DNA of 64,000 bases from Bacteroidaceae bacterium (GTDB lineage: Bacteria > Bacteroidota > Bacteroidia > Bacteroidales > Bacteroidaceae). The translations under genes and the position numbers were made by a program. Below the pieces are notes generated by a model. The model saw only the letters and a program-made list of their open reading frames with translations, ran no database searches and was not told the origin of the DNA. Below, in pieces: positions 10,862 to 61,122 of this stretch (positions within the stretch are counted from its first letter, which is position 1; every line of letters starts with the position of its first letter). The stretch covers positions 124,001 to 188,000 of the forward strand of contig JAGBTN010000003.1 in NCBI GenBank assembly GCA_017631315.1. Reading direction: 5' to 3'.

Positions 10862-10949
10862 AAAGGTTAACCTATTTCGAGATAAAGGTTAACCATTCCG
10901 CCCATAGAGGTTAACCATTTTGCCAATAATGGTTAACCTTTATTTTCAG
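10862..10949. repeat. Array A: four 22-bp GGTTAACC units
   Basis: Units start at 10862, 10884, 10906 and 10928. All four cores are perfect GGTTAACC. The fourth unit ends TTTATTTTCAG and is identical over 22 bp to the last unit of array B. It begins 24 bp after the merR stop. Confidence 0.95.
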
Positions 10950-10990
10950 ACACCCGTGCGGAGGCGAAACAGCAGCCCAAGCGACACAAA

Positions 10991-11093
10991 AACAAAGGAG
11001 CAAAGCCTTGTCGACCTTGCTCCTTCCTTGTGGGCGCTGACGGATTCGTTCCGGCCTTGCCGCCTGACCGTAGGGAAGAACTGCCGACCCTCT
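10991..11093 (-). pseudogene. Partial duplicate of tRNA-Val 3' half plus its terminator
   Basis: 10991-11048 repeats 11101-11158 with about six mismatches, exactly 110 bp away. It covers the terminator hairpin and the acceptor/T-arm end GGGCGCTGACGGATTCG. About 30 bp of unrelated sequence follows (11049-11078), then AACTGCCGACCCTCT resembles the next part of the tRNA. The anticodon and 5' half are lost, so it cannot be a tRNA. Confidence 0.75.
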
Positions 11094-11100
11094 TATACGA

Positions 11101-11135
11101 AACAAAGGAGCAAAGCCTCATTGACTTTGCTCCTT
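11101..11135 (-). terminator. Terminator of tRNA-Val
   Basis: AAAGGAGCAAAG (11104-11115) pairs with CTTTGCTCCTT (11125-11135). On the minus strand it starts about 6 nt beyond the tRNA 3' end and is followed by a TTTGTTT tail. Confidence 0.75.
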
Positions 11136-11140
11136 CTTTG

Positions 11141-11215
11141 TGGGCGCTGACGGATTCGAACCGCCGACCCTCTGCTTGTAAGGCAGATGCTCTGAACCAG
11201 CTGAGCTAAGCGCCC
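11141..11215 (-). tRNA. tRNA-Val (anticodon TAC)
   Basis: 75 nt including the discriminator A; CCA is not encoded. Acceptor GGGCGCT/AGCGCCC, D arm GCTCAGCTGGTTCAGAGC, anticodon stem TCTGC/GCAGA with loop CTTACAA, variable GGGTC, T arm GGCGGTTCGAATCCGTC. All four stems pair. Confidence 0.97.
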
Positions 11216-11245
11216 AAACGGAGTACCTTTCTCCGAAAAGCGCTG

Positions 11246-11277
11246 CAAAGGTACAACAATCCCCCAACTCCTGCAAA
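11246..11277 (-). promoter_or_regulatory. Promoter of tRNA-Val
   Basis: On the minus strand TTTG (11277-11274), 20 bp, then TACCTTTG (11253-11246), an exact consensus, about 30 bp before the mature 5' end. Confidence 0.85.
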
Positions 11278-11320
11278 CATTTCGACAGAAAAGTTTCAAA
11301 AAAAGTTTCGCCAGAAAAGA

Positions 11321-11361
11321 AAAACGGAGTGCCTTGCGACAATCTCTCGCCAAGCACTCCG
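11321..11361 (-). terminator. Terminator after lipoprotein 1
   Basis: CGGAGTGCCTTG (11325-11336) pairs with CAAGCACTCCG (11351-11361) with one bulge. On the minus strand it is followed by TTTTTCTTTTC. It lies 17 bp past the stop. Confidence 0.85.
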
Positions 11362-11378
11362 ATAAAACTCGTTGATAT

Positions 11379-11798
11379 TTATTGTTTCTTGAATGTCACG
11401 GGATAATCGCCATCTTCAAACAGAAACACCACTACTGTCGGAGATAATACCTCTACTTTAAATGTCTCTGTGCCATCTTCGTGGAAGATAGTCAAAGTCT
11501 TAGATTTGTCGTCATACTTGTAAGCGCCGCTTTCCTTATACTCATCCTTTATCTTGCCATTTTCATCCTGTTCGTATGAAACACTAAGATATGTGCCATC
11601 AGCATTGAAAGTAATTATCCCAATCTCACCGTCTCCCTGACCCTTCCATGTGCCGACAATAGAAAATGCTGATGCAGTTGGCCCAGAAGGGTTTCCTGGC
11701 TCTGGAGTTACGGGATCGTCTGGACATGCTGTTAAACTAACACTCAGTACTGCTGCCACAAAAAAGGCAAACAAACCTTGGAAAAACTTTTTAGTCAT
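11379..11798 (-). CDS. Small lipoprotein with lipocalin-like domain, paralogue 1
   Basis: 139 residues. Signal peptide MTKKFFQGLFAFFVAAVLSV ends in lipobox LTAC, with Cys25 as the lipidated residue; D-D follows. A Pro/Gly linker leads to FSIVGTWKGQGDGEIGIITF, FNADGTYLSV and SGAYKYDDKSKTLTIFHEDG, the strand pattern of small Bacteroidetes lipocalin-like lipoproteins. It presumably sits in the outer membrane; ligand unknown. The paralogue at 17666-18106 shares the first 20 residues exactly while the mature part has diverged. It is preceded by the structured RNA at 11862-12051 and, with no other promoter visible, is probably transcribed as part of that RNA. Confidence 0.8.
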   Translation of the reverse strand: MTKKFFQGLFAFFVAAVLSVSLTACPDDPVTPEPGNPSGPTASAFSIVGTWKGQGDGEIGIITFNADGTYLSVSYEQDENGKIKDEYKESGAYKYDDKSKTLTIFHEDGTETFKVEVLSPTVVVFLFEDGDYPVTFKKQ

Positions 11799-11861
11799 AA
11801 TACTTTGTTATAAATGTTTTGTGCAATATTGCCTCTGCCTTCGTGGCGTCTGCACTGACTT

Positions 11862-12051
11862 CAGAGCATGAAAAAAGCGCAGAACTCCGCCATAATCCAC
11901 TCGGGCCTGGAACTGCCCCTATACACCTATGGTGAAGACTGCGCTATGTGCACAGCTTCAACGGTGTATAGGCTTTGCTCTTGTATCTTGTTCGAGGTTC
12001 CAGTTCGAGTGGATAATTGAGCAACAAAGTATTTGCATTTCATGCGAAACG
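11862..12051 (-). ncRNA. Structured RNA, copy 1 (leader or small RNA upstream of lipoprotein 1)
   Basis: Transcription is expected to start near 12051, after the promoter at 12057-12088. Helices visible on the minus strand: P1 ATCCACTCG/CGAGTGGAT (12014-12006 with 11903-11895), P2 CTGGAAC/GTTCCAG, P3 CTATACACC/GGTGTATAG (plus 11919-11927 with 11963-11971), apical CTGTGC/GCGCAG, and a 3' hairpin CGGAG/CTCTG (11885-11889 with 11862-11866) whose loop holds GCGCTTTTTT. The apical strand AGCGCAG (11939-11945) is also perfectly complementary to the loop CTGCGCT (11876-11882). Copy 2 (18171-18360) preserves each helix with different bases. It resembles no riboswitch I can name; a 6S-like rod is an alternative. 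Confidence 0.75.
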
Positions 12052-12056
12052 CTCTG

Positions 12057-12088
12057 CAAAAGTACAATCTTCTGACGAAAGAAACAAA
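12057..12088 (-). promoter_or_regulatory. Promoter of structured RNA copy 1
   Basis: On the minus strand TTTG (12088-12085), 20 bp, then TACTTTTG (12064-12057). This is a full consensus match. Confidence 0.85.
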
Positions 12089-12200
12089 ATATATGGCAGA
12101 AAAATTAACCTGATATGCACATTGTCTCTCTGCCGGGGCAATACCTGCACAATCCGGCACCAATGGCGGGAGTTGCAACGCCCCTTGCCACCGAACCAAA

Positions 12201-12288
12201 ATAGGTTAACCTTTTGGGCAATAATGGTTAAGCCTTCCAACCATAATGGTTAACCTTTTTGCTCGGAATGGTTAACCTTTATTTTCAG
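12201..12288. repeat. Array B: four 22-bp GGTTAACC units
   Basis: Units start at 12201, 12223, 12245 and 12267. Unit 2 has the variant GGTTAAGC. The last unit is identical to that of array A and ends TTTATTTTCAG. It lies between the RNA copy 1 promoter and the DUF2723 gene, the only array not directly 3' of a coding gene apart from L. Confidence 0.95.
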
Positions 12289-12481
12289 AGGGCTTTGGCC
12301 TTGCAGGATAAGGCTTTGCCGCCTGCATGGTTTCTACCTGGCAGTCAGAGCATTGCAGGCGTCTGTGACTGCACACTCCGCCATGGCACGAGGGCTCGGG
12401 GAATGGGACGAAAAACGGGAAGGAAAAGTTAATCAAATATAATAAATGTGTACCTTTAGCATATATGTCAGCAAAAAGTCG
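12289..12481. other. Non-coding stretch between array B and the DUF2723 promoter
   Basis: No open frame with coding character. Short inverted repeats are present: GCCTGCA (12321-12327) with TGCAGGC (12354-12360), and an overlapping GCAGTCA/TGACTGC pair. A small hairpin is possible but no named element is recognised. Confidence 0.4.
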
Positions 12482-12489
12482 TACCTTTG
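12482..12489 (+). promoter_or_regulatory. -7 element for the DUF2723 gene
   Basis: TACCTTTG, an exact consensus, 43 bp before the start codon. A clean TTTG at the proper spacing is lacking. Confidence 0.6.
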
Positions 12490-12532
12490 CACGAAATTAT
12501 ATACATCTTATTATATTATATAAGCGCGCGAA

Positions 12533-15500
12533 ATGAAGCATTTCAGACTTATCGACAACCTGATGGGGTGGCTTGCGTTCGCCATTGCCGCATTCGTCTA
12601 CTGCAGCACGGTGGAACCAACAGCAAGTTTCTGGGACTGCCCCGAGTTCATCACAACAGCCTATAAGCTCGAAGTCGGTCACCCCCCTGGGGCACCCTTC
12701 TTCATGCTCACTGCCAATCTGTTCACACAGTTCGTAAGCGACCCCACGAAAGTCGCACTGATGGTCAACATGATGAGCGCCCTCTTCAGCGCAGCCTGCA
12801 TCATGTTCCTCTTCTGGAGCATAAGCCATCTGGCAAGAAAACTGGTCGGCGTGAACGGACAGGTGCAGAACCTGGCACAACTCATCACGGTGGAAGCCAG
12901 CGCACTGACCGGCGCACTGGTCTATACCTTCAGCGACACCTTCTGGTTCAGCGCAGTGGAAGGCGAGGTATATGCATACAGCAGCCTCTTCACGGCAGTC
13001 GTCTTCTGGCTGATGCTCAAGTGGGAAGACCATGCCGACGAGCCCGGAAGCGACCGTTGGCTCATCCTCATAGCCTACCTCACCGGCCTCTCCATCGGTG
13101 TCCACCTGCTCAACCTGCTCTGTCTGCCAGCCCTCGTGCTCATCTTCTACTATCGTAAGGTGAAGAATGCCACCATGAAGGGCGCCATGCTCTCGCTGGC
13201 CGGCAGCGGACTCCTCATTGCCGCAGTGCTCTACGGCATCGTGCCGGGCATCGTAAAGGTAGGCGGATGGTTCGAACTCCTCTTTGTCAACACGTTCAAC
13301 ATGCCTTTCAACACCGGCGTCATCGTCTACATCGCCCTGCTGGTAGGCATCGTGCTCTGGAGCATTTGGGAGACCATCAAACAGAAAAGCCGCATCCGCA
13401 TGACGCTCTCCTACCTGCTGAGCGTAGGCATGCTGGGCATCCCATTCTACGGACACGGCTGGGGCAGCTTCGTCTGCGGCGTTCTTGTGCTGGGCGTTCT
13501 CTTCTTCCTCCTCCGCTGGAAAAAGGACGGCAAGAACATCGTCTCCGCACGCCTCATGAACACCTCGCTGCTCTGCATGCTCATGATAATGATAGGTTAC
13601 AGCTCATACGCCGTAATCGTCATCCGCAGTTCTGCCAACACGCCGATGGACCAGAACTCGCCCGAAGACATCTTCACCCTGGGAACATACCTGAGTCGTG
13701 AGCAGTATGGCGACCGTCCCCTGCTCTACGGACCCGCCTACACCAGCCAGGTTCTCCTCAAACCCGACGGCAACTACTGCGTCCCCGTTAGCGAAAAAGG
13801 CGCCCCCGTCTATCAGCGCAAAGAGAAACAAGACAAGGAAAACGAGCCCGACCGCTACGAAATACAACGCTACAAGACCGATTACGTCTATCAGCAAAAC
13901 ATGTTCTTCCCCCGCATGTACAGCGAACACCACACCAATGCCTACGAAAGCTGGATGGGTGGCGTAAAGGGAAAAACAAAGACCTACGAGCGCTGTGGCG
14001 ATATGGTACAGATAAAAACACCCACACAGCTCGAAAACCTCCGATTCTTCCTCAGCTATCAGGTCAACTTCATGTATTGGCGCTACTTCATGTGGAACTT
14101 CGCTGGACGACAGAACGACCTGCAAGGCTACGGAGAATGGGAACATGGTAACTGGATCACCGGCATCCCCTTCCTCGACAACATGCGCCTTGGCGACCAA
14201 AGCAAACTGCCAACAGAACTCAAGGAGAACAAGGGGCACAACGTCTTCTACTGCCTGCCACTGCTGCTCGGCCTGATAGGTCTGCTCTGGCAACTCTTCA
14301 AGAACGACGAAAAGAACAACGGCGAAGGCGAAAAACAATTCGGAATCGTCTTCTTCCTCTTCTTCATGACAGGCCTCGCCATCGTGCTCTACCTCAACCA
14401 AACACCGGCACAGCCTCGTGAACGCGACTACGCCTATGCCGGTTCCTTCTACGCCTTCTCCATTTGGGTAGGTCTTGGCGTAGCCGCCATTGCATACTAT
14501 CTGCAGAAAGTCCTCAAGAACGAGAAACTCAGTGCCGTACTGAGTTGCCTCTGCATCCTCGTTCCCATCCAGATGGCAGGACAGACTTGGGACGACCATG
14601 ACCGTAGTGGTCGCTATGCTTGCCGTGACTTCGGCCGCAACTACCTCGAGTCGCTCGACAAAGACAACTACCCCATCATCTATACCAACGGTGATAACGA
14701 CACCTTCCCCCTCTGGTATGCACAGGAAACAGAAGGCTTCCGCACCGATGCCCGCGTTTGTAACCTCTCGTATCTGCAAACCGACTGGTACATCGACCAG
14801 ATGAAACGTCCTGCCTACGAATCGCCGGCAGTGCCCATTCACTGGAGCCGTCTGCAATATGTGGCAGGCACAAGAGAAGGCATCACCGTTCGTCCGGGCA
14901 CATTGGAACGCCTCGTCGATTCCTACAAGGACGACCCTGAGACACTTCGCGAACTTCTGGGCGACGATCCCTTCGAGCTCAAGAACATCATCGACAAGTG
15001 GGTACTCAGCGACAATCCCGACCTGCGTTTCATCCCGACCGACAGCATTGTCATGACCATCGACAAGGAAGCAGTCCGCCGCAGCGGTATGATGATGGCT
15101 GCCGACAGCATCCCCGACAAGATGCACATCAGCCTTAAGGGCAAGAGAGCCGTCTATAAGAGCGAGATGATGATGTACGAAATGCTCCTGCAATGTAATT
15201 GGGAACGCCCGCTTTATGTTGCCATGACCGTAGGAAAGGACAACTATGGCAACCTGGGTGACTACTTTGTTCAGGAAGGACTTGCCAACCGCATCACACC
15301 TTTCAACACAGCCAAGAGCGGCAAAAACATCGACACAGAGAAGATGTACGAGAACCTGATGACACGTTTTACCTTCGGTGGCATCGACAAGCCTGGCATC
15401 TATCTTGACGAAACGGTGATGCGTATGTGTGGCACACACCGTCGTGTGTTCTCCATGCTTGCCACAAGACTTGTGCAAGAAGGCAAGCTCGACAAAGCCG

Positions 15501-15910
15501 CCAATGTGGTGGAGAAGGCCGAGAAGGTTATTCCTCCGACAACCGTGCCACACAGTTACGGCAGTGGTTCTTTGGAATTGGCTCGCGTATGGAACACCTT
15601 GGGCAAGAAACAGGAAGCCACCGACATTGTATATCCCGTTGCCATCCAGGCGACAGAATACATCGACTGGTACCTAAGCCTGCCCAACAAGATATTGCTC
15701 ATCAGCGAGAAAGAGTGCTTCTACTACCTCTATCAGTTGCATGCTGCAGTAGCAATCCTGCAGAGTGCCGGTAGCGACAAGGCGATGGAGCTGAACAAAC
15801 AACTCGACGTCTACAACCAACTCATCCAAAGACGCCTTTATGGTTCGGTCGGGATGAGTTTGGATGCCGACGACATCGAAGAAGAAAGTTACGAAGACGA
15901 TACTGTATAA
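12533..15910 (+). CDS. DUF2723 multi-pass membrane protein (GT117-type, O-mannosyltransferase-like)
   Basis: 1,125 residues. The N-terminus RLIDNLMGWLAFAIAAFVYC, then TASFWDCPEFITTAYKLEVG and HPPGAPFFML, is the DUF2723 signature with the acidic loop (WDCPE) expected of GT-C fold glycosyltransferases. Residues 1-380 contain about ten membrane segments. A second hydrophobic set lies at about 565-670 (LPLLLGLIGLLWQLF, FFLFFMTGLAIVLYL, with QPRERDYAYAGSFYAFSIW between). The C-terminal 450 residues are soluble and probably periplasmic, with NGDNDTFPLWYAQE. The family is near-universal in Bacteroidetes and implicated in protein or lipid glycosylation; substrate not deducible. It lies 33 bp upstream of the deacetylase. 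Confidence 0.88.
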   Translation: MKHFRLIDNLMGWLAFAIAAFVYCSTVEPTASFWDCPEFITTAYKLEVGHPPGAPFFMLTANLFTQFVSDPTKVALMVNMMSALFSAACIMFLFWSISHLARKLVGVNGQVQNLAQLITVEASALTGALVYTFSDTFWFSAVEGEVYAYSSLFTAVVFWLMLKWEDHADEPGSDRWLILIAYLTGLSIGVHLLNLLCLPALVLIFYYRKVKNATMKGAMLSLAGSGLLIAAVLYGIVPGIVKVGGWFELLFVNTFNMPFNTGVIVYIALLVGIVLWSIWETIKQKSRIRMTLSYLLSVGMLGIPFYGHGWGSFVCGVLVLGVLFFLLRWKKDGKNIVSARLMNTSLLCMLMIMIGYSSYAVIVIRSSANTPMDQNSPEDIFTLGTYLSREQYGDRPLLYGPAYTSQVLLKPDGNYCVPVSEKGAPVYQRKEKQDKENEPDRYEIQRYKTDYVYQQNMFFPRMYSEHHTNAYESWMGGVKGKTKTYERCGDMVQIKTPTQLENLRFFLSYQVNFMYWRYFMWNFAGRQNDLQGYGEWEHGNWITGIPFLDNMRLGDQSKLPTELKENKGHNVFYCLPLLLGLIGLLWQLFKNDEKNNGEGEKQFGIVFFLFFMTGLAIVLYLNQTPAQPRERDYAYAGSFYAFSIWVGLGVAAIAYYLQKVLKNEKLSAVLSCLCILVPIQMAGQTWDDHDRSGRYACRDFGRNYLESLDKDNYPIIYTNGDNDTFPLWYAQETEGFRTDARVCNLSYLQTDWYIDQMKRPAYESPAVPIHWSRLQYVAGTREGITVRPGTLERLVDSYKDDPETLRELLGDDPFELKNIIDKWVLSDNPDLRFIPTDSIVMTIDKEAVRRSGMMMAADSIPDKMHISLKGKRAVYKSEMMMYEMLLQCNWERPLYVAMTVGKDNYGNLGDYFVQEGLANRITPFNTAKSGKNIDTEKMYENLMTRFTFGGIDKPGIYLDETVMRMCGTHRRVFSMLATRLVQEGKLDKAANVVEKAEKVIPPTTVPHSYGSGSLELARVWNTLGKKQEATDIVYPVAIQATEYIDWYLSLPNKILLISEKECFYYLYQLHAAVAILQSAGSDKAMELNKQLDVYNQLIQRRLYGSVGMSLDADDIEEESYEDDTV

Positions 15911-15943
15911 ATCGTAAATCGGCAAAATTAGTAGATAGATATC

Positions 15944-16558
15944 GTGTTCATTGAGCAGCCACCACGCCTCTTTCGTTGGTTATACCCCCATGCCCTGTGG
16001 CGGATAAACCCCGACAAGAAGATTGTTTACCTTACCTTCGACGATGGTCCGATACCGGAGGCCACTCCTTTTATCCTCGACACATTGGACCGCTTCGAGG
16101 TAAAGGCAACATTCTTCATGGTGGGTGACAATGCGGTGAAGTATCCCCATTTGCTCGACGAAGTACGGCGAAGAGGACACCAGATAGGCAATCACACCTT
16201 CAACCACCTCTCCGGCTTCCGTCACCGCCCGTGGAGTTACCTTGCCAACATCAAGAAGGCCAACGATATCTTCCACACCAACCTCTTCCGTCCGCCACAC
16301 GGCTGGATAGGTCTGGTGCAATACCGAGTGCTGCGCTACTGTGGCTTAAAGGTCGTGATGTGGGATGTTGTGACACGCGACTACAGCCGTCTGCTCACCG
16401 CCGGCGATGTCGTGAACAACGTGAAGCGCTACACCAGAAACGGCAGCATCATTACGATGCACGACTCGCTCAAGAGCATCGACAAACTCAAGCATGCCCT
16501 GCCGGAGATTCTCGTCTGGCTGAAACAGGAAGGATATGAGTTCGGCATTATTGAATAG
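15944..16558 (+). CDS. Polysaccharide deacetylase (NodB, carbohydrate esterase 4)
   Basis: 204 residues from a GTG start. The NodB domain shows motif 1 TFDDGP (catalytic Asp and metal Asp), motif 2 GNHTFNH (HxxxH metal ligands), motif 3 FRPPHGW, and a C-terminal ITMHDSLKS (motif 5 His). There is no signal peptide, so it is cytoplasmic or works on a lipid-linked or membrane-proximal substrate. It would remove N-acetyl groups from a glycan. It lies between the DUF2723 gene (33 bp) and queG (23-bp overlap), suggesting one transcript. Confidence 0.88.
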   Translation: MFIEQPPRLFRWLYPHALWRINPDKKIVYLTFDDGPIPEATPFILDTLDRFEVKATFFMVGDNAVKYPHLLDEVRRRGHQIGNHTFNHLSGFRHRPWSYLANIKKANDIFHTNLFRPPHGWIGLVQYRVLRYCGLKVVMWDVVTRDYSRLLTAGDVVNNVKRYTRNGSIITMHDSLKSIDKLKHALPEILVWLKQEGYEFGIIE

Positions 16559-17429
16559 CACAGACATCAAAGCCCAGGCCTTGCGCTTGGGCTTTGTTGC
16601 TTGCGGTCTGGCAAAGGCAGAACCTGTGGCAGAGTCGTTTGCCGAACGCTACCTCCATTGGCTGGAACGTGGTTTCTGTGCCGAGATGGACTACATGCGT
16701 CGCAACGTCGAGATGCGTCTACAGCCCGACCTCCTCGTGCCGGGCGTGCGAACCATCGTCTGCCTTGCCATGAATTTCATGCCTGAACGACAGCAGCCTG
16801 CCATCAGCCTGTATGCACAAGGGAAAGACTATCACGATGTGATGAAGCAAAGGATGCAGGAACTCATGCAGACGTGTGGGCTCGAAGGCCGCTGCTTTGT
16901 CGACACCGCCCCCGTGCTCGAACGCTACTGGGCTTGGAAGAGCGGCATAGGAACCATTACGCCAAGCGGACTGATTGCTGTGCCAGGCTACGGACCAACC
17001 GTCTTTCTTGGCGAACTCTTCCTGACATCCGAAGCCGATTCCTACGATGCTCCACTGCCAGGAGCCATGCCCACAAAGTCGGGATGGCAGTCGCTTTGTC
17101 CGGCTCTCACTGCCGAAGGACTGGATGCAAGGAAGTGTGTCAGTTATCAGACCATAGAACATCGTGGCGAACTGCCGGAATCGATACGGCTCCACCAAAC
17201 CTTCTACGGTTGCGACCGTTGTCTGCGTGCCACGCCACAATTCGTTGAGGCACGACCCACACAAGAGCCTGCCTTCCAACCTTCCGACGCCTTATTGGAG
17301 ATGACGCCCAACGACTGGAGAAATCTCACCGAAGAGCAGTACCGCACCCTCTTCAAAGGCTCCGCCGTCAAACGCGCCAAATACGAAGGCCTCATGCGCA
17401 ACATCAACCGATGGCTGAAGCAAGGCTGA
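16536..17429 (+). CDS. QueG-like epoxyqueuosine reductase with degenerate Fe-S cysteines
   Basis: 297 residues, aligned with QueG by DYMRRNVEMRLQPDLLVPG, the catalytic-Asp motif FVDTAPVLER, FLGEL, LDARKCVSYQTIEHRGELP and the ending EGLMRNINRWL. QueG reduces epoxyqueuosine to queuosine using cobalamin and two [4Fe-4S] clusters. The expected CGxCxxCxxxCP motif is here GAMPTKSGWQSLCP, with three of four Cys replaced, and the second motif is YGCDRCLRATP, with the last Cys lost (about 17060-17240). The frame is intact. It is either a degraded enzyme or one with changed chemistry, so the symbol is withheld. It overlaps the deacetylase by 23 bp; its TGA stop sits in the left border of array C. Confidence 0.8.
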   Translation: MSSALLNSTDIKAQALRLGFVACGLAKAEPVAESFAERYLHWLERGFCAEMDYMRRNVEMRLQPDLLVPGVRTIVCLAMNFMPERQQPAISLYAQGKDYHDVMKQRMQELMQTCGLEGRCFVDTAPVLERYWAWKSGIGTITPSGLIAVPGYGPTVFLGELFLTSEADSYDAPLPGAMPTKSGWQSLCPALTAEGLDARKCVSYQTIEHRGELPESIRLHQTFYGCDRCLRATPQFVEARPTQEPAFQPSDALLEMTPNDWRNLTEEQYRTLFKGSAVKRAKYEGLMRNINRWLKQG

Positions 17430-17432
17430 AAT

Positions 17433-17520
17433 AAAGGTTAACCTTTCCGGCAATAATGGTTAAGCATTCCAGGCATAATGGTTAACCTTTTCGGCCAAAA
17501 TGGCTAACCATTATTTGTAG
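17433..17520. repeat. Array C: four 22-bp GGTTAACC units
   Basis: Units start at 17433, 17455, 17477 and 17499. Cores are GGTTAACC, GGTTAAGC, GGTTAACC and GGCTAACC. The left border CTGAAAT (17426-17432) contains the queG stop codon; the right end TTATTTGTAG mirrors it. Confidence 0.95.
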
Positions 17521-17599
17521 ATAACTCTAATAAGGGAAAAGCAAGATATTGTAATTTGCAAACACCTTGCCTGAAAATTTCGCAGAGCCTTCCTGCTTA

Positions 17600-17648: not shown

Positions 17649-17665
17649 AAGATTTCATTGGATTT

Positions 17666-18360: not shown

Positions 18361-18365
18361 CTCTG

Positions 18366-18397: not shown

Positions 18398-18509
18398 ATT
18401 TATGCTGGAAAAATTAATCTAATATGTGTATTTTCTCGCCACTATGCCAACACCTATATAATCAGACGCAAACAGGGAGGTATCATATTACCCTTACACC
18501 TCCTGAAAT

Positions 18510-18575
18510 AAAGGTTAACCTTTCGGGCAATAATGGTTAAGCATTCCAGGCATAATGGTTAACCTTTTCGACCAA
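18510..18575. repeat. Array D: three 22-bp GGTTAACC units, fourth lost
   Basis: Units start at 18510, 18532 and 18554 and match units 1-3 of array C with only a few differences. The expected fourth unit (from 18576) reads CATCCCACACC and has no core. The left border is CTGAAAT (18503-18509). It lies 3' of the PHP gene. Confidence 0.93.
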
Positions 18576-18639
18576 CATCCCACACCTTTCCGGCAGGCCC
18601 TGCTGGCGAAGTCTTCTCACACCCTCCTGTATTACACCA

Positions 18640-23802: not shown

Positions 23803-25047
23803 ATGGAAAGGCTGCTGCACTATGTCTGGAAGCACAAGTTGCTGCCACTCGGTCCTCTCCGCACGTCGGAGGGGCTGGAGGTGGAGGTCATCGACCTGGG
23901 TCTTCACAACCACGACCAGGGCCCCGACTTCTTCAATGCCAAGATTCGGCTGGGCGGAACGCTATGGGCGGGCAACATTGAGATGCATCTGCGCTCGTCG
24001 GACTGGTACAGACATGGTCACGACAGCGACCCCTCCTACAACAGTGTCATCCTGCATGTTGTGGGGGAGGTTGACGGTGAGGCCAGGACTCTGGAGGGAA
24101 AGACGTTGCCTCAGGTTCGGCTTGACATTCCGGAGTACATCCGCACGAACTACGAGGTGCTTTGCCGGACGGAGGATTATCCGCGTTGCCACCGTATTAT
24201 TCCGTCGCTGCCGCTGCTGAAGGTGCATCAATGGATGGATGCTTTGCTTGTGGAGAGGCTGAGGGAGCGGTCGGAAAGGATAACGATGCTGGCGGAAAGG
24301 CTGGGTGGCGACTGGGAGCGTGCCACGTTTGTCACGCTGAGCCGCAGTTTCGGTTTTGGTCTGAACGGCGATGCCTTCGAGCGTTGGGCCATGCGTATTC
24401 CGCTTTCGGCGGCAGGCAAGCATCGCGACGACCTGTTCCAAATCGAGTCGCTCTTCCTGGGTATGGCAGGCCTCATCGACGAGATGGAGAAGCAGAGGAG
24501 CGGCTCGGAGGTTCGGCTTCTCAGGCAGGAGTTTGAGTTCCTGAAGCACAAATTCGGCCTGACAGACGCGATGGAGCGGTCGGACTGGTGCTTCATGCGA
24601 ACCCGTCCCCGCAACTTTCCCTACCTGCGCATCCTGCAGATAGCGGAACTCTACCATGGCGGCAAGGCCCAGATGAGCAAACTACTGGAAGCCGAAAGCA
24701 TCGAGAGTCTGCAGGAATGCATGAGGGTGAAGGGAATGACGGCTGCAAGCCGCAGGCTGCTCATCATCAACACGGCGGTGCCCTTGCTCTTCGCCTATGG
24801 CAAGCACAGCAGTAATGAGGACATCTGCCAGCGTGCCATCCGCCTTCTGGAGGCCTTGCCTGCGGAGAACAACCACATTCTGCGACAGTGGCAAACCTGC
24901 GGACTGAAGGTCGCCACGGCAGCCGACAGCCAGGCACTCATACAACTCAAACGCCAATACTGCGACAGGGCAGACTGCCTCAGGTGCAGGTTCGGATACG
25001 AATACCTGCGGGGGAGCAAAAAAGATGGCGTGCCTTGTCGGCAATAA
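23803..25047 (+). CDS. DUF2851 family protein
   Basis: 414 residues. The N-terminus MERLLHYVWKHKLLPLGPLR, then EVIDLGLHNHDQGPDFFNAK and WAGNIEMHLRSSDWYRHGHD, is the conserved DUF2851 block with a D/E-H arrangement resembling a PD-(D/E)XK nuclease core. SRSFGFGLNGDAFERWAM and RPRNFPYLRIL follow. The C-terminus has CDRADCLRCRFGYEYLRG, a Cys cluster (CxxxxCxxC) that could hold a metal. Function unknown. The last codons and stop (GVPCRQ) fall within array E, so the original C-terminus may have been replaced. Divergent from dapB. Confidence 0.8.
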   Translation: MERLLHYVWKHKLLPLGPLRTSEGLEVEVIDLGLHNHDQGPDFFNAKIRLGGTLWAGNIEMHLRSSDWYRHGHDSDPSYNSVILHVVGEVDGEARTLEGKTLPQVRLDIPEYIRTNYEVLCRTEDYPRCHRIIPSLPLLKVHQWMDALLVERLRERSERITMLAERLGGDWERATFVTLSRSFGFGLNGDAFERWAMRIPLSAAGKHRDDLFQIESLFLGMAGLIDEMEKQRSGSEVRLLRQEFEFLKHKFGLTDAMERSDWCFMRTRPRNFPYLRILQIAELYHGGKAQMSKLLEAESIESLQECMRVKGMTAASRRLLIINTAVPLLFAYGKHSSNEDICQRAIRLLEALPAENNHILRQWQTCGLKVATAADSQALIQLKRQYCDRADCLRCRFGYEYLRGSKKDGVPCRQ

Positions 25048-25111
25048 TGCTTAACCATTATGCCCATAAAGGTTAACCCTTTCGGGCAACAAGGCAGTAG
25101 ATGTTTTACAA
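25024..25111. repeat. Array E: 22-bp unit array with divergent outer units
   Basis: Units start at 25024, 25046, 25068 and 25090. The inner cores are GCTTAACC and GGTTAACC. The outer cores are GGCGTGCC and GGCAGTAG, the same outer pair as in array L. The first unit overlaps the last 24 bp of the DUF2851 gene and supplies its final codons. Confidence 0.85.
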
Positions 25112-27880: not shown

Positions 27881-27906
27881 ACCACCGCCTTGGGCAACCA
27901 CGAAAT

Positions 27907-27994
27907 AATGCTTAACCATTATCGGCAATTAGGTTAACCATTATGGACATAATGCTTAACCATTCCAGCCAAAAAGGTTAACCCTTTTCCAAAC
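27907..27994. repeat. Array F: four 22-bp units
   Basis: Units start at 27907, 27929, 27951 and 27973. Cores are GCTTAACC, GGTTAACC, GCTTAACC and GGTTAACC, a strict alternation. The left border CGAAAT resembles the CTGAAAT of C, D and H. It lies between HIT and the SGNH gene. Confidence 0.95.
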
Positions 27995-31993: not shown

Positions 31994-32024
31994 GCCACAA
32001 CACACCCACAGGCACGTCTCAAAA

Positions 32025-32112
32025 ATAGGTTAACCTTTCCGGCAAGAATGGTTAACCTTTCTTCATATAATGGTTAACCTTTCCGCCCATAATGCTTAAC
32101 CTTTTCCGAAAG
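32025..32112. repeat. Array G: four 22-bp units
   Basis: Units start at 32025, 32047, 32069 and 32091. Cores are three GGTTAACC and one GCTTAACC. It lies 31 bp after the queA stop. The remaining leader to 32226 is A/T-rich with no gene. Confidence 0.95.
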
Positions 32113-35571: not shown

Positions 35572-35585
35572 ACCATGTCTGAAAT

Positions 35586-35673
35586 AATGCTTAACCATTA
35601 TTGCCAAATAGGTTAAGCATTATGGGCGGAAAGGTTAAGGGTTTTGGCCGAAAAGGTTAACCTATTTTTCCGA
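35586..35673. repeat. Array H: four 22-bp units
   Basis: Units start at 35586, 35608, 35630 and 35652. Cores are GCTTAACC, GGTTAAGC, GGTTAAGG and GGTTAACC. The left border is CTGAAAT (35579-35585). It fills the gap between the convergent GH115 and ComEA-like genes. Confidence 0.95.
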
Positions 35674-39867: not shown

Positions 39868-39892
39868 ATCCGAGGCTTAGGCCTCCGTTGAA

Positions 39893-39980
39893 AAAGGTTA
39901 ACCTTTTCGGCAATAATGCTGTACCATTCTAACAAGAAAGGTTAACCATTATCGGCATAATGGTTAACCTATTTTGAGAG
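39893..39980. repeat. Array I: four 22-bp units, one decayed
   Basis: Units start at 39893, 39915, 39937 and 39959. Cores are GGTTAACC, GCTGTACC (decayed), GGTTAACC and GGTTAACC. It lies between the convergent VanZ and GH76 genes. Confidence 0.93.
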
Positions 39981-46149: not shown

Positions 46150-46286
46150 CACACGAAGGCAAAAAAATATCAGCAATCCGCAAATTGTTGTTAATATCTA
46201 CACATACGGCATTGTAATGTATATTCTGCGGATTGTTTATCAGCGTATTATACCTATAAAAAAGGCGGCTTTGGGGCTTCCGAAAA

Positions 46287-46374
46287 AAAGGTTAACCATT
46301 CTTGCCCGAAAGGTTAAGCATTAGGGGCAGAAAGGTTAACCTATTTGGCAATAATGGTTAAGGTTTTTTGCAGA
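46287..46374. repeat. Array J: four 22-bp units
   Basis: Units start at 46287, 46309, 46331 and 46353. Cores are GGTTAACC, GGTTAAGC, GGTTAACC and GGTTAAGG. It lies 3' of tsaE and upstream of the mannan operon promoter. Confidence 0.95.
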
Positions 46375-46882: not shown

Positions 46883-48433
46883 TTATCGTTTCTTCCCGCG
46901 CAAAGTGATGAGGGGCACCAGCATCTCCTCCATGCTGATACCGCCGTGCTGGAAGGTATCCTTGTAATACTGAACGTAATAGTTATAGTTGTTGGGGTAG
47001 GCAAAGAAGTCGTCCTGCATGGCAAAAATGTAGGCCGTGCTGAGGTTCGGACTGGGCAAGCCAGCCCGCAGAGGCTCCTTTATCTCGAATACCTCCTTCT
47101 GGTTGTACGACAGATTCTTGCCCAACTTGTAGCGCAAATTCGTATTCGTGTTGCGGTCGCCAATCACCTTCACAGGGTTGTAGCAGCGGATGCTGCCGTG
47201 GTCGGTGGTAAGAACAATGGTGCAGTCCTGCGCCGCAAGGGCCCGGAAGAGTTCGCTCACAGCCGAATGGCGCAACCAGCTCTGCGTAATGCTGCGGTAA
47301 GCCGCCTCGCTGTTGGCAAGTTCGCGCACCATCATGCTCTCCGTGCGTGCATGGCTGAGCATATCGATGAAGTTGATGACCACAACATTCAAGTCGTTCT
47401 TCATCAAACCCGGTATCTGCGACACAAACTTCTCGGCAGCACCGGAATGATTTATCTTATGGTAAGAAAACGAATTCTTGCGGCGATAGCGGTCGAGATG
47501 CGTCCGGACCAGAGGCTCCTCGTTGAGATTCTTGCCCTCCTCGCTGTCCTCGTCCACCCAAAGCTCGGGGAACATCCTGGCAATATCGTTAGGCATCAAA
47601 CCACTGAAAATGGCATTGCGCGCATACTGGGTAGCCGTAGGCAGAATACTGCAATACATATTCTCCTCCACAGAAAAGCCATCCGCAATCTCGCCAAGCA
47701 GCATACGCCACTGGTCGTAACGGAAATTGTCGATAACCACAAGGAAAACCTTCTCCCCCCGGTCCAGCAAAGGGAAGACAGCACGCTTGAAGATGTCGGG
47801 ACTCATCACCGGACGGGCATCGGCATCCTGCATCCATCGCATGTAGTTCTTGCGTATGAACTTTGCAAACTCCGCATTGGCCTCATGCTTCTGCATGGCA
47901 AGCATCTCCTGCATCCCACTCTCCGTCTCGCTCAACTGAAGTTCCCAGTAAGTAAGGCGCTTATAGACCTCCTTCCACTCCTCAATGCTCGAAGCATCGT
48001 TGATAAGCATACCCAGACGCGAAAAGTCCTGCTGATAGTTCGACTGCGTGTGCTCCGTCACGATTTCCTTCTGCTGGATGTTCTTCTTCAGCGAGAGAAG
48101 TATCTGCGTGGGGTTAACCGGTTTGATGAGATAGTCTGCAATCTTGGCACCAATGGCTTGCTCCATGATGTGCTCCTCCTCGCTCTTCGTGACCATCACG
48201 ACAGGCGTAGCAGGCAGGATTTCCTTGACACGCGTCAAAGTTTCCAGTCCACTCAAGCCCGGCATATTCTCGTCGAGCAGAATAAGGTCGAACGCCTCCA
48301 CGGCACAACGGTCGAGCGCATCATAGCCATTCGTCACCGTCTCAACCTCATAACCCTTCTTCTCGAGAAAAAGAATATGAGCCTTCAAGAGTTCTATCTC
48401 ATCGTCAACCCAAAGCAGCTTATAAGTCACCAT
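46883..48433 (-). CDS. porX: PorX: response regulator with PglZ/alkaline-phosphatase domain
   Basis: 516 residues. The receiver domain is at 1-115, with acidic pair D10-D11 (LWVDDE), phosphoacceptor D54 (ILLDENMPG) and K104 (LIKPVNP). A helical linker spans about 115-200. The PglZ domain (about 200-510) has FLVVIDNFRYDQWR, SILPTATQYARNAIFSGLMP, VNFIDMLSHAR and TTDHGSIRCYNP, carrying the zinc-type Asp/His ligands. PorX governs type IX secretion genes with the kinase PorY and a sigma factor; neither is in the window. It fits with the PorW-like gene and type IX tails found nearby. Confidence 0.93.
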   Translation of the reverse strand: MVTYKLLWVDDEIELLKAHILFLEKKGYEVETVTNGYDALDRCAVEAFDLILLDENMPGLSGLETLTRVKEILPATPVVMVTKSEEEHIMEQAIGAKIADYLIKPVNPTQILLSLKKNIQQKEIVTEHTQSNYQQDFSRLGMLINDASSIEEWKEVYKRLTYWELQLSETESGMQEMLAMQKHEANAEFAKFIRKNYMRWMQDADARPVMSPDIFKRAVFPLLDRGEKVFLVVIDNFRYDQWRMLLGEIADGFSVEENMYCSILPTATQYARNAIFSGLMPNDIARMFPELWVDEDSEEGKNLNEEPLVRTHLDRYRRKNSFSYHKINHSGAAEKFVSQIPGLMKNDLNVVVINFIDMLSHARTESMMVRELANSEAAYRSITQSWLRHSAVSELFRALAAQDCTIVLTTDHGSIRCYNPVKVIGDRNTNTNLRYKLGKNLSYNQKEVFEIKEPLRAGLPSPNLSTAYIFAMQDDFFAYPNNYNYYVQYYKDTFQHGGISMEEMLVPLITLRGKKR

Positions 48434-54175: not shown

Positions 54176-54238
54176 TTGATTAGTGATTAAGTTAATTATT
54201 ATTATGGTTGTTTTTCTTTCTGCATGGTTTGTTGTCAA

Positions 54239-54326
54239 ATAGGTTAAGCATTATGGCCAATTAGGTTAACCATTATGGTCGGAAAGGTTAAGCATTATGG
54301 CCCGAAAGGTTAACCTATTTTGGAGC
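54239..54326. repeat. Array K: four 22-bp units
   Basis: Units start at 54239, 54261, 54283 and 54305. Cores are GGTTAAGC, GGTTAACC, GGTTAAGC and GGTTAACC. The fourth unit contains the last codons and the TAG stop of the upstream sulfatase. Confidence 0.95.
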
Positions 54327-56861: not shown

Positions 56862-56883
56862 ATCCTATTTCTCTTTTACCTGT

Positions 56884-58230
56884 CTACAAATCCATTTCCG
56901 CACCCCTGTCGCCCTGTTCCTTCATCCATAGCTCCAACTCGTTCTGCATAGCACGAATACGCTTGGCATATCTTGGCTGAGATGCTAAATTGTTCAGTTC
57001 CCAGGGATCTTTCTCCAAATCATAGAACTCCTGCCTCGGACGATTACGATACTTGTCCATCAGCCAACGAGCATGCTCGTCTGTCTTAACGGTCTCAAGC
57101 CAAGAAGTCCACATGCGGTCCTTGTCCTTCATCATCCTGGTATTGGTATACGCTACCTCAGGTGTAAGATTGACAATTAACTTGTAACGCTTGTCCTGAA
57201 TACTGCGAATGGGATAGGCCGGTCCCTCTGGATGATTGTTGTGCAACCCAAATGCCCAACGTCGCACCTCCCGCTTCTTGCCGAGAAGAACCGGCAACTG
57301 CGACACGCCGTCCAAAGTATCAACGCGCTCGCCACCCGCCACCTCAATAAGTGTCGGCAGGATATCCTCGTATTGAACCAATGCATCACTTCTTGAACCA
57401 GGCTTGATATGACCCGGATAACGTGCAATGAAAGCACTCGACTGACCATAGTTATAGCATGTCCATTTACCGAAAAGCATGCGAGGCCCTTGTTCGCTTA
57501 GCAGGATAACTAACGTATTGTCTTCCTTTCCACTCTCCCTTAATGCCTCCATAACCTTTCCCACCTCATTGTCAAAGAGCCGTATTTCAGCCAAATAGTC
57601 GCAAAATAGTTCGCGAGTTGCCTGATTGTCGATGCAGTTTGGCGGAAGAATAACCTTTGATGGGTCAAACTCCGAAGCATCACCCGCATCCCAAGGCATG
57701 TGGCTGTTAATACTGCAAACAAAGAGACAAAAAGGTTCATCTGCACTTCGGTTTATAAATTCCCTTATACCATCCGTCGTAGCCAATGGAGGATGAGACT
57801 TGGTACAGCCAACAGGAAAACCAGGAACCTTCTCAAAAGCATAGACCTTTGGTTGGTTTGCAGGATGATCCTTCCCTGTCCTGCCTACACGATAACCCAA
57901 CTCCGACAAGAAATGTGTAACACTGCGTGAGCCACGATACGTAGCCTTATGATTACGATAGGAACCATTACGCACAGGATAGAGGCCAGTATACATAGAA
58001 GCACGAATAGGCACACTCATGGCCGCAGAAGCAAAGTTGCTGGTCATAAGCATACCTTCATTGGCCACCCGGTCAATGTTAGGCGTAGCAAGGTTCTGCC
58101 CACCATAGCAACCCAACTCACATCGTGCCATATCATCGGCTATCATAACAAGGATGTTCGGCCTTTGCTGAGCCATTGCCGAACTAAATCCCAACGGCAC
58201 AAATGCCAATATGTATCTGCCTCCTTTCAT
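56884..58230 (-). CDS. S1 sulfatase (sulfamidase-like), without extra domain
   Basis: 448 residues with signal peptide (YILAFVPLGFSSAMAQ). Metal Asp D32-D33, nucleophile S72 in SVPIR, GRTGKDHPANQPKVYAFEKV and DGVSQLPVLLGKKREVRRWA. It is about 65% identical by eye to the sulfatase half of the next gene; the two arose by duplication, one of them having gained or lost the GLUG domain. Its ATG overlaps the previous stop as TAATG, and the next start is 22 bp away, so the four sulfatases are one operon. Substrate unknown; sulfated glycans such as host mucin or glycosaminoglycan are plausible. Confidence 0.92.
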   Translation of the reverse strand: MKGGRYILAFVPLGFSSAMAQQRPNILVMIADDMARCELGCYGGQNLATPNIDRVANEGMLMTSNFASAAMSVPIRASMYTGLYPVRNGSYRNHKATYRGSRSVTHFLSELGYRVGRTGKDHPANQPKVYAFEKVPGFPVGCTKSHPPLATTDGIREFINRSADEPFCLFVCSINSHMPWDAGDASEFDPSKVILPPNCIDNQATRELFCDYLAEIRLFDNEVGKVMEALRESGKEDNTLVILLSEQGPRMLFGKWTCYNYGQSSAFIARYPGHIKPGSRSDALVQYEDILPTLIEVAGGERVDTLDGVSQLPVLLGKKREVRRWAFGLHNNHPEGPAYPIRSIQDKRYKLIVNLTPEVAYTNTRMMKDKDRMWTSWLETVKTDEHARWLMDKYRNRPRQEFYDLEKDPWELNNLASQPRYAKRIRAMQNELELWMKEQGDRGAEMDL

Positions 58231-59573
58231 TACATTCCGAATCTGTAGGTTTTATACCATTGACATACTCGTTTACTGAGTTTGCGAACTAATTTGGGAT
58301 GTTCGGAAGCCACATTCGTGGTCTCCTTTGGATCGGCAACCATATCATAGAGTTGAACATCTGAGGCATCGTCGCCACAAAGCAACTTCCATTTGCCCTG
58401 ACGAATGGCCAAATGCGGACTGCGGTGATATGCATTACGTGGTCTGTTGTACGATTCGTTACGTCCGAAGTCCCACATCAGAACTTCCTTACGTTTTGGT
58501 TCTTCCTTTCCCAAAAATGCTTTGCTGTAGTCTGCCCCATCACTCCAATAACCCTCTTGTGTTGGAATACCACATATACTGCAGAGCGATGGATATAAGT
58601 CCAAAGTAGATAGAACTGTCTTATTGTTCACCTTTCCCGGCTCTATTAACTTGGGGTATCGAATGATGCATGGCATGTTTATACCGCCGTCATATAGACT
58701 ATTCTTTTGGCCGCGCTTACCACAAGTGCGTTCTTGTTTGAAACTTGGAGCAGGACCATTGTCGGCTGTAAAAACAACAATGGTATTGTCCTTTAATCCT
58801 AAACTGTCAATGGCATTGAAGAAACGTCCCAACTGGCGATCCAGTTCTTCCATCACCGGGATAAAACTGGTTCTCTTTTCCCATTCTCCTCTCTTTTCTG
58901 CCACAGCCTCCGGCACCCACGGGGTGTGCACATCGTCTGGCCACAGATTTAAGAAGAATGGCTTTCCATGATCCTTATTCTCCTTCATAAAATCTATGGC
59001 TCTGTCTATGAAATATGCTGTACGATTCCAACGTTTCACCTCGTCGGTTGCAGCCCAAATCCACCTTGTAGAAGTTAGTTTAGGGTCGGGGTCTGGACTT
59101 TCGTATGTAGATACATGGCTGGTGAATCCGTATTGTTCAAAACCTGGAGCATCGGTTACGTCCCTTCCGCCTCCCATGTGCCATTTGCCAAAGTGTCCTG
59201 TGGAATAGCCTGCATCTTTAAAGGCATGTGCCATGGTTGGTGCGTTGGGATCTAAATAGTTGGCATTCTCTACACGAGCATTGGCTGCTTTGGAGTCGAG
59301 GAATGTATTCATGCGATATTTTATGGGGTATCGTCCTGTAAGGAGTCCTGCCCTGGCTGGGGAGCTGACTGGGGCTGCGGAATAGAAACAACCTAATTGC
59401 AAACCTTCGCGAGCTAGTTGGTCAATGTTTGGGGTGGGTGTAATAGTAGAGCCATAGGTTCCGTTGTCGCCAATTCCCATATCATCAACCAATATGACTA
59501 TTACATTGGGCTTCTGTTGCTGGGCATAGCCTATGGTTGCAGCAAAGGGAAGCAAAAACAGGGTTTTCTTCAT
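58230..59573 (-). CDS. S1 arylsulfatase-type sulfatase
   Basis: 447 residues from MKKTLFLLPFAATIGYAQQQ; in-frame codons upstream are not homologous. Metal Asp D30-D31 (VDDMGIGDNG), nucleophile S70 in SSPAR (serine type), GKWHMGGGRDV and FTADNGPAPSFKQERT. The nucleophile motif GLLTGRYP and the PSLCSICGIP end are typical of arylsulfatase A-like members. It lies between two other sulfatases, overlapping the downstream one by 1 bp. Likely periplasmic or surface exposed. Confidence 0.93.
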   Translation of the reverse strand: MKKTLFLLPFAATIGYAQQQKPNVIVILVDDMGIGDNGTYGSTITPTPNIDQLAREGLQLGCFYSAAPVSSPARAGLLTGRYPIKYRMNTFLDSKAANARVENANYLDPNAPTMAHAFKDAGYSTGHFGKWHMGGGRDVTDAPGFEQYGFTSHVSTYESPDPDPKLTSTRWIWAATDEVKRWNRTAYFIDRAIDFMKENKDHGKPFFLNLWPDDVHTPWVPEAVAEKRGEWEKRTSFIPVMEELDRQLGRFFNAIDSLGLKDNTIVVFTADNGPAPSFKQERTCGKRGQKNSLYDGGINMPCIIRYPKLIEPGKVNNKTVLSTLDLYPSLCSICGIPTQEGYWSDGADYSKAFLGKEEPKRKEVLMWDFGRNESYNRPRNAYHRSPHLAIRQGKWKLLCGDDASDVQLYDMVADPKETTNVASEHPKLVRKLSKRVCQWYKTYRFGM

Positions 59574-59593
59574 GTTTGGTAATAATATTGAGA

Positions 59594-60979
59594 TTAGTAT
59601 TCGGTTATCTTCCATTCTTTTGGCGCCACGAAGCCTTTCTGTCCTTTCCCAAAAGGGATTTCCTCCTGATATGGCACGATGGCGTCGCCTTCCTGTATTG
59701 TCCGTCGCAATTGGCTTACCCTTTCCGGGTATTCGTAGATACGACCTTCTCGTTTTTCTGATGGATTCTTTTGGATGTCTGTAATGAAATCTTTCTGGAG
59801 TCGCATGTGCTGGTTTGCCAGAATGAGCTTGTATTGTGCACAGACTCCGGCTCCGCATCCAAGGTAGAAATCACGATCTATCTGTTCTTTTTCTCCTTTA
59901 AGTACGCTAAAGATACTGATGCCGTCGTAGGGATTTTTAGGTGTCTCTTTTATTTCTACGATGTCTGCCAAGGTGGGCAGGATGTCTACAAAGCCTGTGA
60001 CTTGGTCGAGTTTGCGATTGCCCTGCCGAAAGGCTTTCTTCCAGTAAATGCCTGCCACTGTACGTACGCCGCCTTCCCATTCGTCAAACTTCGACCCTCT
60101 CAACGGTCGGTTTACAGAATAGGGTTCCATGCCGGGCACTCCGCCATTATCGCTGAAGAAGAGGATGAGGGTGTTGTCCCATTCTCCGCTTTCGCTGATG
60201 GCTTGCAGAATTGCTCCTATGCCTTTGTCCATACGTGAGACCATGGCTCGGTATGTCCATCCTTTTTGATCTTTAGGGGGGAGGGAGTCGAATTCTTCTT
60301 TGCTTATGAACTTACGTATTTCTTCTTCGGGAGCTTGATAGGGCGAATGGGGTGCGTTGAAGCAGGTGTATATGAAATAGGGGCCTTCCTTGGCATATTC
60401 TTTAATGCAACGTGCCGACTCTGCTGCAATGAGGTCGGTGGAGTAGCCTTTCTCGTAGCAGGATTCCCAATCGTCGTGCCAGTCCAGTTCTTTCTCGCGT
60501 GTATGTTCGAAGTAGTCTATGGCACCATTCAGTGCGCCATGGAAATGTGTGAAGCCTCGGTTTAGGGGATAATAGCGTTGCTTGCTATGACCCATGTGCC
60601 ATTTGCCGATGGCTGCCCGGTGGGCATATCCATTTCGTCCCAGCACATCGGCCATGGTTTCTTCCTCTATGGGAAGTCCGTAGTCGCGCCATGGTGGGAT
60701 TACAGTTTCGCGTATGCCAAACCTGTTGGGGTACCGTCCTGTCATGAGTCCGCATCTGGTTGGTGAACTGACAGGTGCTGTATAGAACCTGTCCAGCTCA
60801 ATACCTTCGTTGAGAATACGGTCTATGTTGGGAGTTGGGATGACGCTGCCGTGGTGACTTACGTCGCCCCAGCCCAGGTCGTCTGCTACGATAATGACGA
60901 TGTTGGGCCTGTCCGTCTGTGCCATTCCCAGCATTGGGAGCAGCGTTGCCGATGATAGTAAAAACTGTTTTGTTCTCAT
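59594..60979 (-). CDS. S1 arylsulfatase-type sulfatase, first gene of the operon
   Basis: 461 residues from MRTKQFLLSSATLLPMLGMA (signal peptide); an ATG six codons earlier (60997) is possible. Metal Asp D33-D34 (VADDLGWGDVSHHG), nucleophile S71 in SSPTR, GKWHMGHSKQRYYP and FFSDNGGVPGMEP. The pattern differs from the other three, so a different linkage is likely. First of four sulfatases, about 330 bp downstream of the promoter at 61311-61342 and following array L. Confidence 0.93.
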   Translation of the reverse strand: MRTKQFLLSSATLLPMLGMAQTDRPNIVIIVADDLGWGDVSHHGSVIPTPNIDRILNEGIELDRFYTAPVSSPTRCGLMTGRYPNRFGIRETVIPPWRDYGLPIEEETMADVLGRNGYAHRAAIGKWHMGHSKQRYYPLNRGFTHFHGALNGAIDYFEHTREKELDWHDDWESCYEKGYSTDLIAAESARCIKEYAKEGPYFIYTCFNAPHSPYQAPEEEIRKFISKEEFDSLPPKDQKGWTYRAMVSRMDKGIGAILQAISESGEWDNTLILFFSDNGGVPGMEPYSVNRPLRGSKFDEWEGGVRTVAGIYWKKAFRQGNRKLDQVTGFVDILPTLADIVEIKETPKNPYDGISIFSVLKGEKEQIDRDFYLGCGAGVCAQYKLILANQHMRLQKDFITDIQKNPSEKREGRIYEYPERVSQLRRTIQEGDAIVPYQEEIPFGKGQKGFVAPKEWKITEY

Positions 60980-61035
60980 AATAACCAATCGTTTCATGGG
61001 GGGCTGTCCAAAACATCATAGGCGAGGTCTGAAAA

Positions 61036-61122
61036 CATGGCGTGCCTTTCCGGGCAAAAGGTTAAGCATTATGGGCGGAAAGGTTAACCTTTATGGGCAG
61101 AAAGGCAGTAGATGTTTTTGTA
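61036..61122. repeat. Array L: 22-bp unit array with divergent outer units
   Basis: Inner units at 61057 and 61079 have cores GGTTAAGC and GGTTAACC. The outer ones read GGCGTGCC (61039) and GGCAGTAG (61104), as in array E, though the first gap is 21 bp. It lies in the 5' leader of the sulfatase operon. Confidence 0.85.

Follow-up and report, generated by a model that had tools for sequence, protein, structure and literature searches.

The 64,000-nucleotide stretch of DNA analyzed here, referred to as the window, comprises positions 124,001 to 188,000 of contig JAGBTN010000003.1 in a Bacteroidaceae bacterium assembly (GCA_017631315.1). It carries twelve arrays, A to L, in which 8-bp cores of the GGTTAACC type step every 22 bp along the DNA, and all twelve lie where an earlier note, made from the window alone, had placed them (Table 1). 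Array A is adjoined by a tRNA gene (11141-11215, minus strand). The window's own genome, G000 (2.68 Mb, incomplete), is compared below with a sister genome, G023, with the congeners G005, G008, G012, G019, and G035, which are named at orthologous gaps, and with additional genomes; the genomes compared are incomplete metagenome assemblies, and individual loci from them are designated by L-numbers. Genes were called with our own hexamer script, a non-standard caller, and small genes that it overlooked shift the gap classes used below.

Table 1. The twelve 22-bp arrays of the window and their counterparts in related genomes (window positions; ORF, open reading frame)
Array	Positions	Units and setting	Related genomes
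A	10858..10945	four units	G023 alignment at same place
B	12197..12284	four units; divergent gap	aligned in G023
C	17429..17516	four units, fourth core GGCTAACC; directly after stop codon	rearranged in G023
D	18506..18593	three units and a decayed fourth; near-copy of C	unalignable in G023
E	25020..25107	two inner GGTTAACC-type units, in-register outer units GGCGTGCC and GGCAGTAG; overlaps last codons of upstream ORF	aligned in G023; other-core arrays in G035, G005, G008
F	27903..27990	four units	aligned in G023; gap without array in G008, G005, G035
G	32021..32108	four units	aligned in G023; other-core arrays in G035, G005, G019, G008
H	35582..35669	four units	first spacer exactly inverted in G023; other-core arrays in G035, G005, G012
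I	39889..39976	four units, second core GCTGTACC	aligned in G023; other-core arrays beside GH76 in G008, G035, G005, G012
J	46283..46370	four units	aligned in G023
K	54235..54322	four units; touches stop codon of minus-strand ORF at 54315	aligned in G023
L	61032..61118	two inner GGTTAACC-type units, in-register outer units GGCGTGCC and GGCAGTAG; first step 21 bp	aligned in G023, first step 22 bp

Tandem Repeats Finder at its default score reports a period of 22 at ten of the twelve sites, missing E (25024) and I (39893). Exact G[GC]TTAA[GC]C cores number 40 in the window, 39 of them inside arrays and one, at 48112, stray within a gene. Four GGTTAACC-like units are present in nine arrays and not in ten as first counted, the departures being D, E, and L. 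The end motifs of the earlier description are also less general than proposed: CTGAAAT stands on the left in three of the twelve (C, D, and H) and TTATTTTCAG on the right in two (A and B), while the general feature of both ends is that the six or so bases leading outward are rich in T, with a GC-rich dyad about one unit beyond them. The arrays are real, but most of the core dyads, described as palindromic, deviate from symmetry. Counted over the second and third cores of 72 four-unit arrays, there are 78 cases of ATT-against-TTT arms and 25 of like arms; an asymmetric core accompanies 22 of the 25, and the fully symmetric AATGGTTAACCATT occurs twice. A global polarity of the arrays was considered and set aside, since the unit signs in four-unit arrays are, judged by eye, about as mixed as chance.

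The spacing of the units is nearly invariant. Core-to-core distances of up to 70 bp in the G000 and G023 loci, some of which overlap one another so that repeats are included, are 22 (315), 44 (197), 66 (90), and 65 (1), with no others, all but the last being multiples of 22. The free variation in spacing that would have made the pattern a matter of chance was not seen. Exactly four units are present in 89 of the 125 arrays at these loci, and the remainder have two to five. Where array sequences were dropped as repeats, each was counted once per genome, and G000/G023 orthologs enter both counts where both genomes are named. A genome-wide search for GGTTAASC-N14-GGTTAASC gave 207 forward and 163 reverse matches in G000 (palindromic matches are counted on both strands, and family counts are given below as forward/reverse), 167/185 in G023, 12/20 in G019, 0/1 in G005, 1/0 in G015, and none in the other 56 of 61 genomes, while the backwards control gave 0 in G000 and one match each in G005 and G034.

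A comparison of G000 with G023 indicates which parts of an array are retained. Arrays without 30-60 bp of flank within their locus were dropped. Of the 41 G000 arrays that remained, 31 could be aligned along their whole length at the corresponding position in G023; the other ten did not align because their other flank lay outside the loci examined, was not colinear, or was rearranged. All 31 aligned arrays are present in both genomes, and the 41 include no clean presence/absence pair. Divergence is 2.8% over 928 core positions, 1-8% at the TT/AA positions of the spacer, 22-28% at three central spacer positions and 12% at a fourth, 14.8% in the flank at 10-60 bp, and 7.6% in the further, mostly coding flank. 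No gaps fall in core columns, and two of 85 spacers are gapped, one of them net (read from the spacer list). The first spacer of array H (35589-35633) in one genome is the exact inversion of its counterpart in the other; the central tetramers in H and in K (54264) are inverted as well. From these divergences the core and the phase look selected, and a conserved core with fixed helical phase, the feature by which an array of protein-binding sites may be recognized, is present here.

A further property was invisible from the window alone, namely that relatives have arrays at the same places with other sequences. In congeners, orthologous gaps, among them those of E, G, H, and I, contain 22-bp arrays built on the unrelated cores CACGTG, TACATGTA, CCTATAGG, TTAACACGTTAA, and CTCGTGAG. 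In a lag scan over gaps of at least 60 bp in seven genomes, lag 22 reaches a score of 27 in 57 of 166 gaps, and any other lag from 16 to 29 does so in at most five; at a threshold of 25, among 216 intervals, lag 22 accounts for 59, lags 16 and 21 for 12 each, and lag 28 for 10. At the latter threshold, 108 orthologous gap pairs from six genomes divide into 24 with arrays in both members, 4 and 7 with an array in a single member, and 73 with neither. Length-binned shuffles give a mean of 12.0 shared pairs (standard deviation 2.05), and none of 5000 reaches 24. The 24 shared pairs trace to nine distinct gaps and have genomes in common, one of the nine (G035 L122 near 5292) is AT-rich low-complexity sequence, and the one-sided p value is below 0.05 in 5 of 12 species-pair tables.

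In 20 further congeners, lag 22 is found in 14 of 150 gaps, spread over 12 genomes, with lag 21 next at 5; the palindromic character of several of the 14 hits is weak (8 to 12 of 22 positions), and eight of the 20 stretches have none. The 18 usable stretches at the level of the order have lag 22 in 0 of 97 gaps. Pairs of GGTTAACC at 22 bp were found in four of five named assemblies tested, which places the design beyond the genus: 17 in a sheep-rumen Bacteroidaceae assembly, 6 in Prevotellaceae, 6 in Chitinophagaceae, all at one place, and 2 in Tannerella, also at one place, while the fifth assembly has an array of GCTTAACC form. The species named here from the wider scan are among the matches listed. 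For the arrays of these uncultured gut bacteria, the results suggest that spacing and place matter more than sequence.

The dominant family differs among the five genomes in which one was recognized, a statement confined to families whose patterns were taken from stretches already examined. Besides the GGTTAASC pairs of G000 and G023, ACATGT/GCAATTGC is found 176 times in G019, 44 in G005, 16 in G012, 14 in G026, twice in G023, and once each in G000 and G035, with none in the other 34 of 41 genomes. Matches to CCCACGTGAT number 55/54 in G035, with none in the other 40 of 41. Those to CACGTTAA number 53/56 in G008 and 17/7 in G005, with summed counts of 1 to 4 in seven others and none in 32 of 41; the control is 0 for all three of these families. 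An array of another family, with a AACAAGGCACGTTAAGTTGGCC unit, was also seen in G000 itself (L132 near 3040). In locus L230 of G005, three TACATGTA units continue in 22-bp phase into units with a CTTGACGTGTGAAG-type core.

Arrays of the G035 family retain a memory of unit position. When the spacers of 20 arrays are compared, those at equal unit positions in different loci have an identity of 0.82 and those within an array 0.45, and ATTTGAAATATT occupies position 2 in 14 of the 20 and never position 1 or 3; a whole block has therefore been copied between loci. This memory is gone in G000 (0.625 versus 0.614) and in G023 (0.636 versus 0.633). Such copying lends partial support to non-autonomous mobile elements resembling miniature inverted-repeat transposable elements (MITEs), the mobile repeat of the earlier note. 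Successive families would burst, landing next to gene 3′ ends or within older arrays, and then decay, and shared places would reflect a limited number of tolerated sites. The separate dominant family of each of the five genomes fits this explanation, as do the terminal inverted repeats that flank the G008 array at site I and the state of gap F, which measures 157 bp in G000 and 26 bp in array-free G008 and G005, a difference of 131 bp or about six units of 22. G035 likewise has no array at F. Against the explanation, the 31 arrays that align between G000 and G023 are present in both, with no clean presence/absence pair among the 41. Orthologous arrays, moreover, retain core and phase while their spacers and close flanks diverge, and shared occupancy exceeds that of the length-binned shuffles. 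Neither target duplications nor a parent element came to light, although no dedicated search for either was made. RAYT (PF01797) has matches in 19 of the 41 genomes searched, G035 lying outside that set, and none in G000, G023, G005, G008, or G019, which are incomplete genomes; other transposases were not part of this search. We regard mobile elements as a rather unlikely explanation of the arrays as a whole.

The arrays lie close to the ends of genes. Distances to a flanking 3′ end are below 100 bp in 54 of 66 cases, compared with 13 of 54 for 5′ ends, and among gaps of at least 60 bp, arrays occupy 13 of 33 convergent, 37 of 134 tandem, and 8 of 43 divergent ones. This placement agrees with the idea of a transcript-end element, in which hairpins of neighboring palindromes followed by a T-run would act in RNA as bidirectional terminators or 3′-end stabilizers. 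Further features agree with it. The outer halves are T-rich, array ends in convergent gaps having 5.46 T of 8 and those in divergent gaps 4.18 (raw means), and the last two units with their tail can score as a terminator, as in array A. All of ten arrays fold better as RNA than the mean of their shuffles (z from -1.6 to -10.8). In G008, the GH115 gene ends in an ordinary terminator where others carry array H, and an array stands instead after the end of the neighboring HHH gene. (This GH115 gene, the neighbor of arrays G and H, is duplicated in tandem in L117 of G023, L123 of G005, and L126 of G019 but not in the window.)

Core polarity also runs with transcription where both flanking genes point the same way (12:3 and 24:6 arrays), a tandem-only contrast read after the gap classes had been split. 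It does not do so in convergent gaps (1:4 and 5:3) or divergent ones, and for tandem and convergent gaps together p = 0.26 in G000 and 0.0017 in G023. The polarity and T-run tests used arrays of at least three units with a called gene on each side, and among 65 tandem arrays the exit side shows no excess of T (4.94 of 8 versus 5.12 at entry, p = 0.48), which does not support a simple directional terminator. Mutual exclusion of arrays and ordinary terminators is not supported either, as terminator-like sites, including those made by the array, are present at 39 of 94 gene ends with an array and at 25 of 93 without.

The presence of arrays in divergent gaps, a spacing more rigid than RNA stems need, and the lack of any Rfam match on the arrays at the gathering threshold (the sole hit in the window is the tRNA) likewise count against an RNA element. 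In addition, the halves that would pair are anti-correlated, with lower complementarity than after re-pairing (z to -6.3 in 72 arrays from both genomes), and perfect core dyads make up 7% compared with 16-18% after arm swapping, a mild effect; this speaks against a hairpin as the selected form. The objection is weakened by mean mismatches of 1.53, hardly different from 1.51 and 1.40 for swapped arms, and the anti-correlation may partly reflect the mixing of two array orientations. A Rho-site interpretation, with YC every 11 nucleotides, was dropped because CC and TC steps are, judged by eye, scarce in the TACATGTA family. An RNA element at transcript ends appears to us quite improbable.

The reading we favor, tentatively and with somewhat less than even confidence, is that the arrays are helically phased DNA-binding platforms at gene boundaries that spread as blocks and are kept while their letters turn over. 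Of the three roles guessed at the outset, the protein-binding platform fits best, its cooperativity being a prediction; recognition at the level of DNA accounts at once for a phase that is fixed, a core that is conserved, and a spacer center that is free. Each 22-bp unit would hold a putative DNA-binding site of about 14 bp, in G000 roughly AANGGTTAACCNTT. With usually four such sites, two helical turns apart, the bound proteins would line up along a single face of the helix, close enough for contact and cooperative binding. The resulting nucleoprotein block, set at the boundary of a gene and most frequently a short way beyond a stop codon, might serve as a DNA-level insulator or roadblock against read-through or the spread of supercoils. 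Whole multi-unit blocks, perhaps of about 130 bp (a length taken from the one empty site, F), may have spread in other genomes as in G035, and selection on core and phase would then retain them. Over longer times one recognition sequence would give way to another, with the 22-bp phase and many of the occupied places left as they were; a family could be replaced at the same sites by insertion into existing arrays, by gene conversion, or by drift alongside a protein that itself changes.

Several observations weigh against this reading. The favorable RNA folds and the polarity that tracks transcription in tandem gaps belong among them, the latter being unpredicted by a purely DNA-level role, as do the near-equal mismatches and possible orientation mixing that soften the case against hairpins. 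Several core families coexist in one genome, G005, and in the phase-continuous array of L230, which a single sequence-specific protein does not explain. No binding protein has been identified, and none was sought by model. A broader form of the idea, possible but doubtful, is a chromosome-wide punctuation system in which place and 22-bp phase, and not the letters, are inherited. Many of the same sites would be written in palindrome dialects proper to each species, read by co-evolving putative DNA-binding proteins, and one dialect would replace another genome-wide.

Several known systems resemble the arrays in part. CRISPR arrays also consist of regularly spaced palindromic repeats, but the present arrays have 8-bp cores and semi-conserved 14-bp spacers and form more than a hundred blocks of four at scattered places. 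Many palindromic sites dispersed over the chromosome are also bound by nucleoid proteins such as Noc and SlmA, these sites being mostly single, in contrast to phased blocks of four with species-specific letters. Descriptions of such arrays were not found in the open-licence papers searched, and with the Rfam result they do not appear to be an already annotated repeat. Repetitive extragenic palindromic (REP) sequences and bacterial interspersed mosaic elements (BIMEs), of the GTAG and CGTC superfamilies, are likewise short palindromes of many copies, mostly intergenic, often downstream of genes, clustered, and of several families per genome (PMC3733652). The arrays share the extragenic position mostly downstream of genes and differ in their fixed 22-bp phase, their usual four units, and the replacement of sequence at places shared between species. 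A fixed GTAG or CGTC tetramer was not found in 178 array ends (36 positions outward) or in the inner halves, and with this result and the lack of RAYT in G000, identity with REP/RAYT systems is not supported; RAYT goes with the GTAG type, and the CGTC type occurs without it (PMC3733652). A table of REP counts in the RepRanger paper includes rows for Bacteroidota (PMC12306157).

The BrickBuilt MITE of Porphyromonas gingivalis, also in Bacteroidales, has dispersed intergenic copies of tandem short repeats. It is described as 23-nt direct repeats in 1 to 22.8 copies with a leader and a tail bearing IS5-like ends, present in 19 copies (PMC4596501). Unlike these, the arrays are palindromic phased blocks with a 22-bp step and mostly four units, and the 23-nt unit and widely varying copy number of BrickBuilt were not found in them, and identity is not supported. 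The same paper also mentions, without describing them, 22-nt tandem repeats in P. gingivalis W83 (PMC4596501), and these may be kin to the arrays. REP/BIME elements and BrickBuilt are the nearest kinds, and both fail some defining tests.

Differences in gene order were seen near some arrays. About 800 bp between A and B (11296-12095), with a lipocalin-like ORF (11379-11798, minus strand), is missing from the aligned G023 DNA. Window positions 6383-17420 (L116 1729-11898) are inverted in G023, where CTGCAG-core arrays lie near both ends of the inversion. Different DNA occupies the interval between neighboring arrays in G000 and G023 at L132 7998-9576 (about 1.6 kb) and L136 7029-10038 (about 3.0 kb), and the breaks coincide with the arrays. 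The view of arrays as hot spots of rearrangement is not supported: an array is found no more than 150 bp away from 7 of 16 synteny breakpoints, compared with 28.7% of intergenic and 5.4% of all positions, so that intergenic DNA in general is not clearly exceeded.

Conserved sequence is the usual means of recognizing DNA elements with regulatory or structural roles, whereas here position and helical phase appear to outlive the replacement of sequence, and sequence searches would therefore not connect the arrays of one species with those of another. A 22-bp lag in intergenic DNA offers a simple signature that can be sought elsewhere. If the arrays are mobile blocks, they would be an unusual case of repeats that renew the same sites; if they are protein platforms, they would constitute a natural experiment in the co-evolution of protein and DNA at a hundred or more sites.

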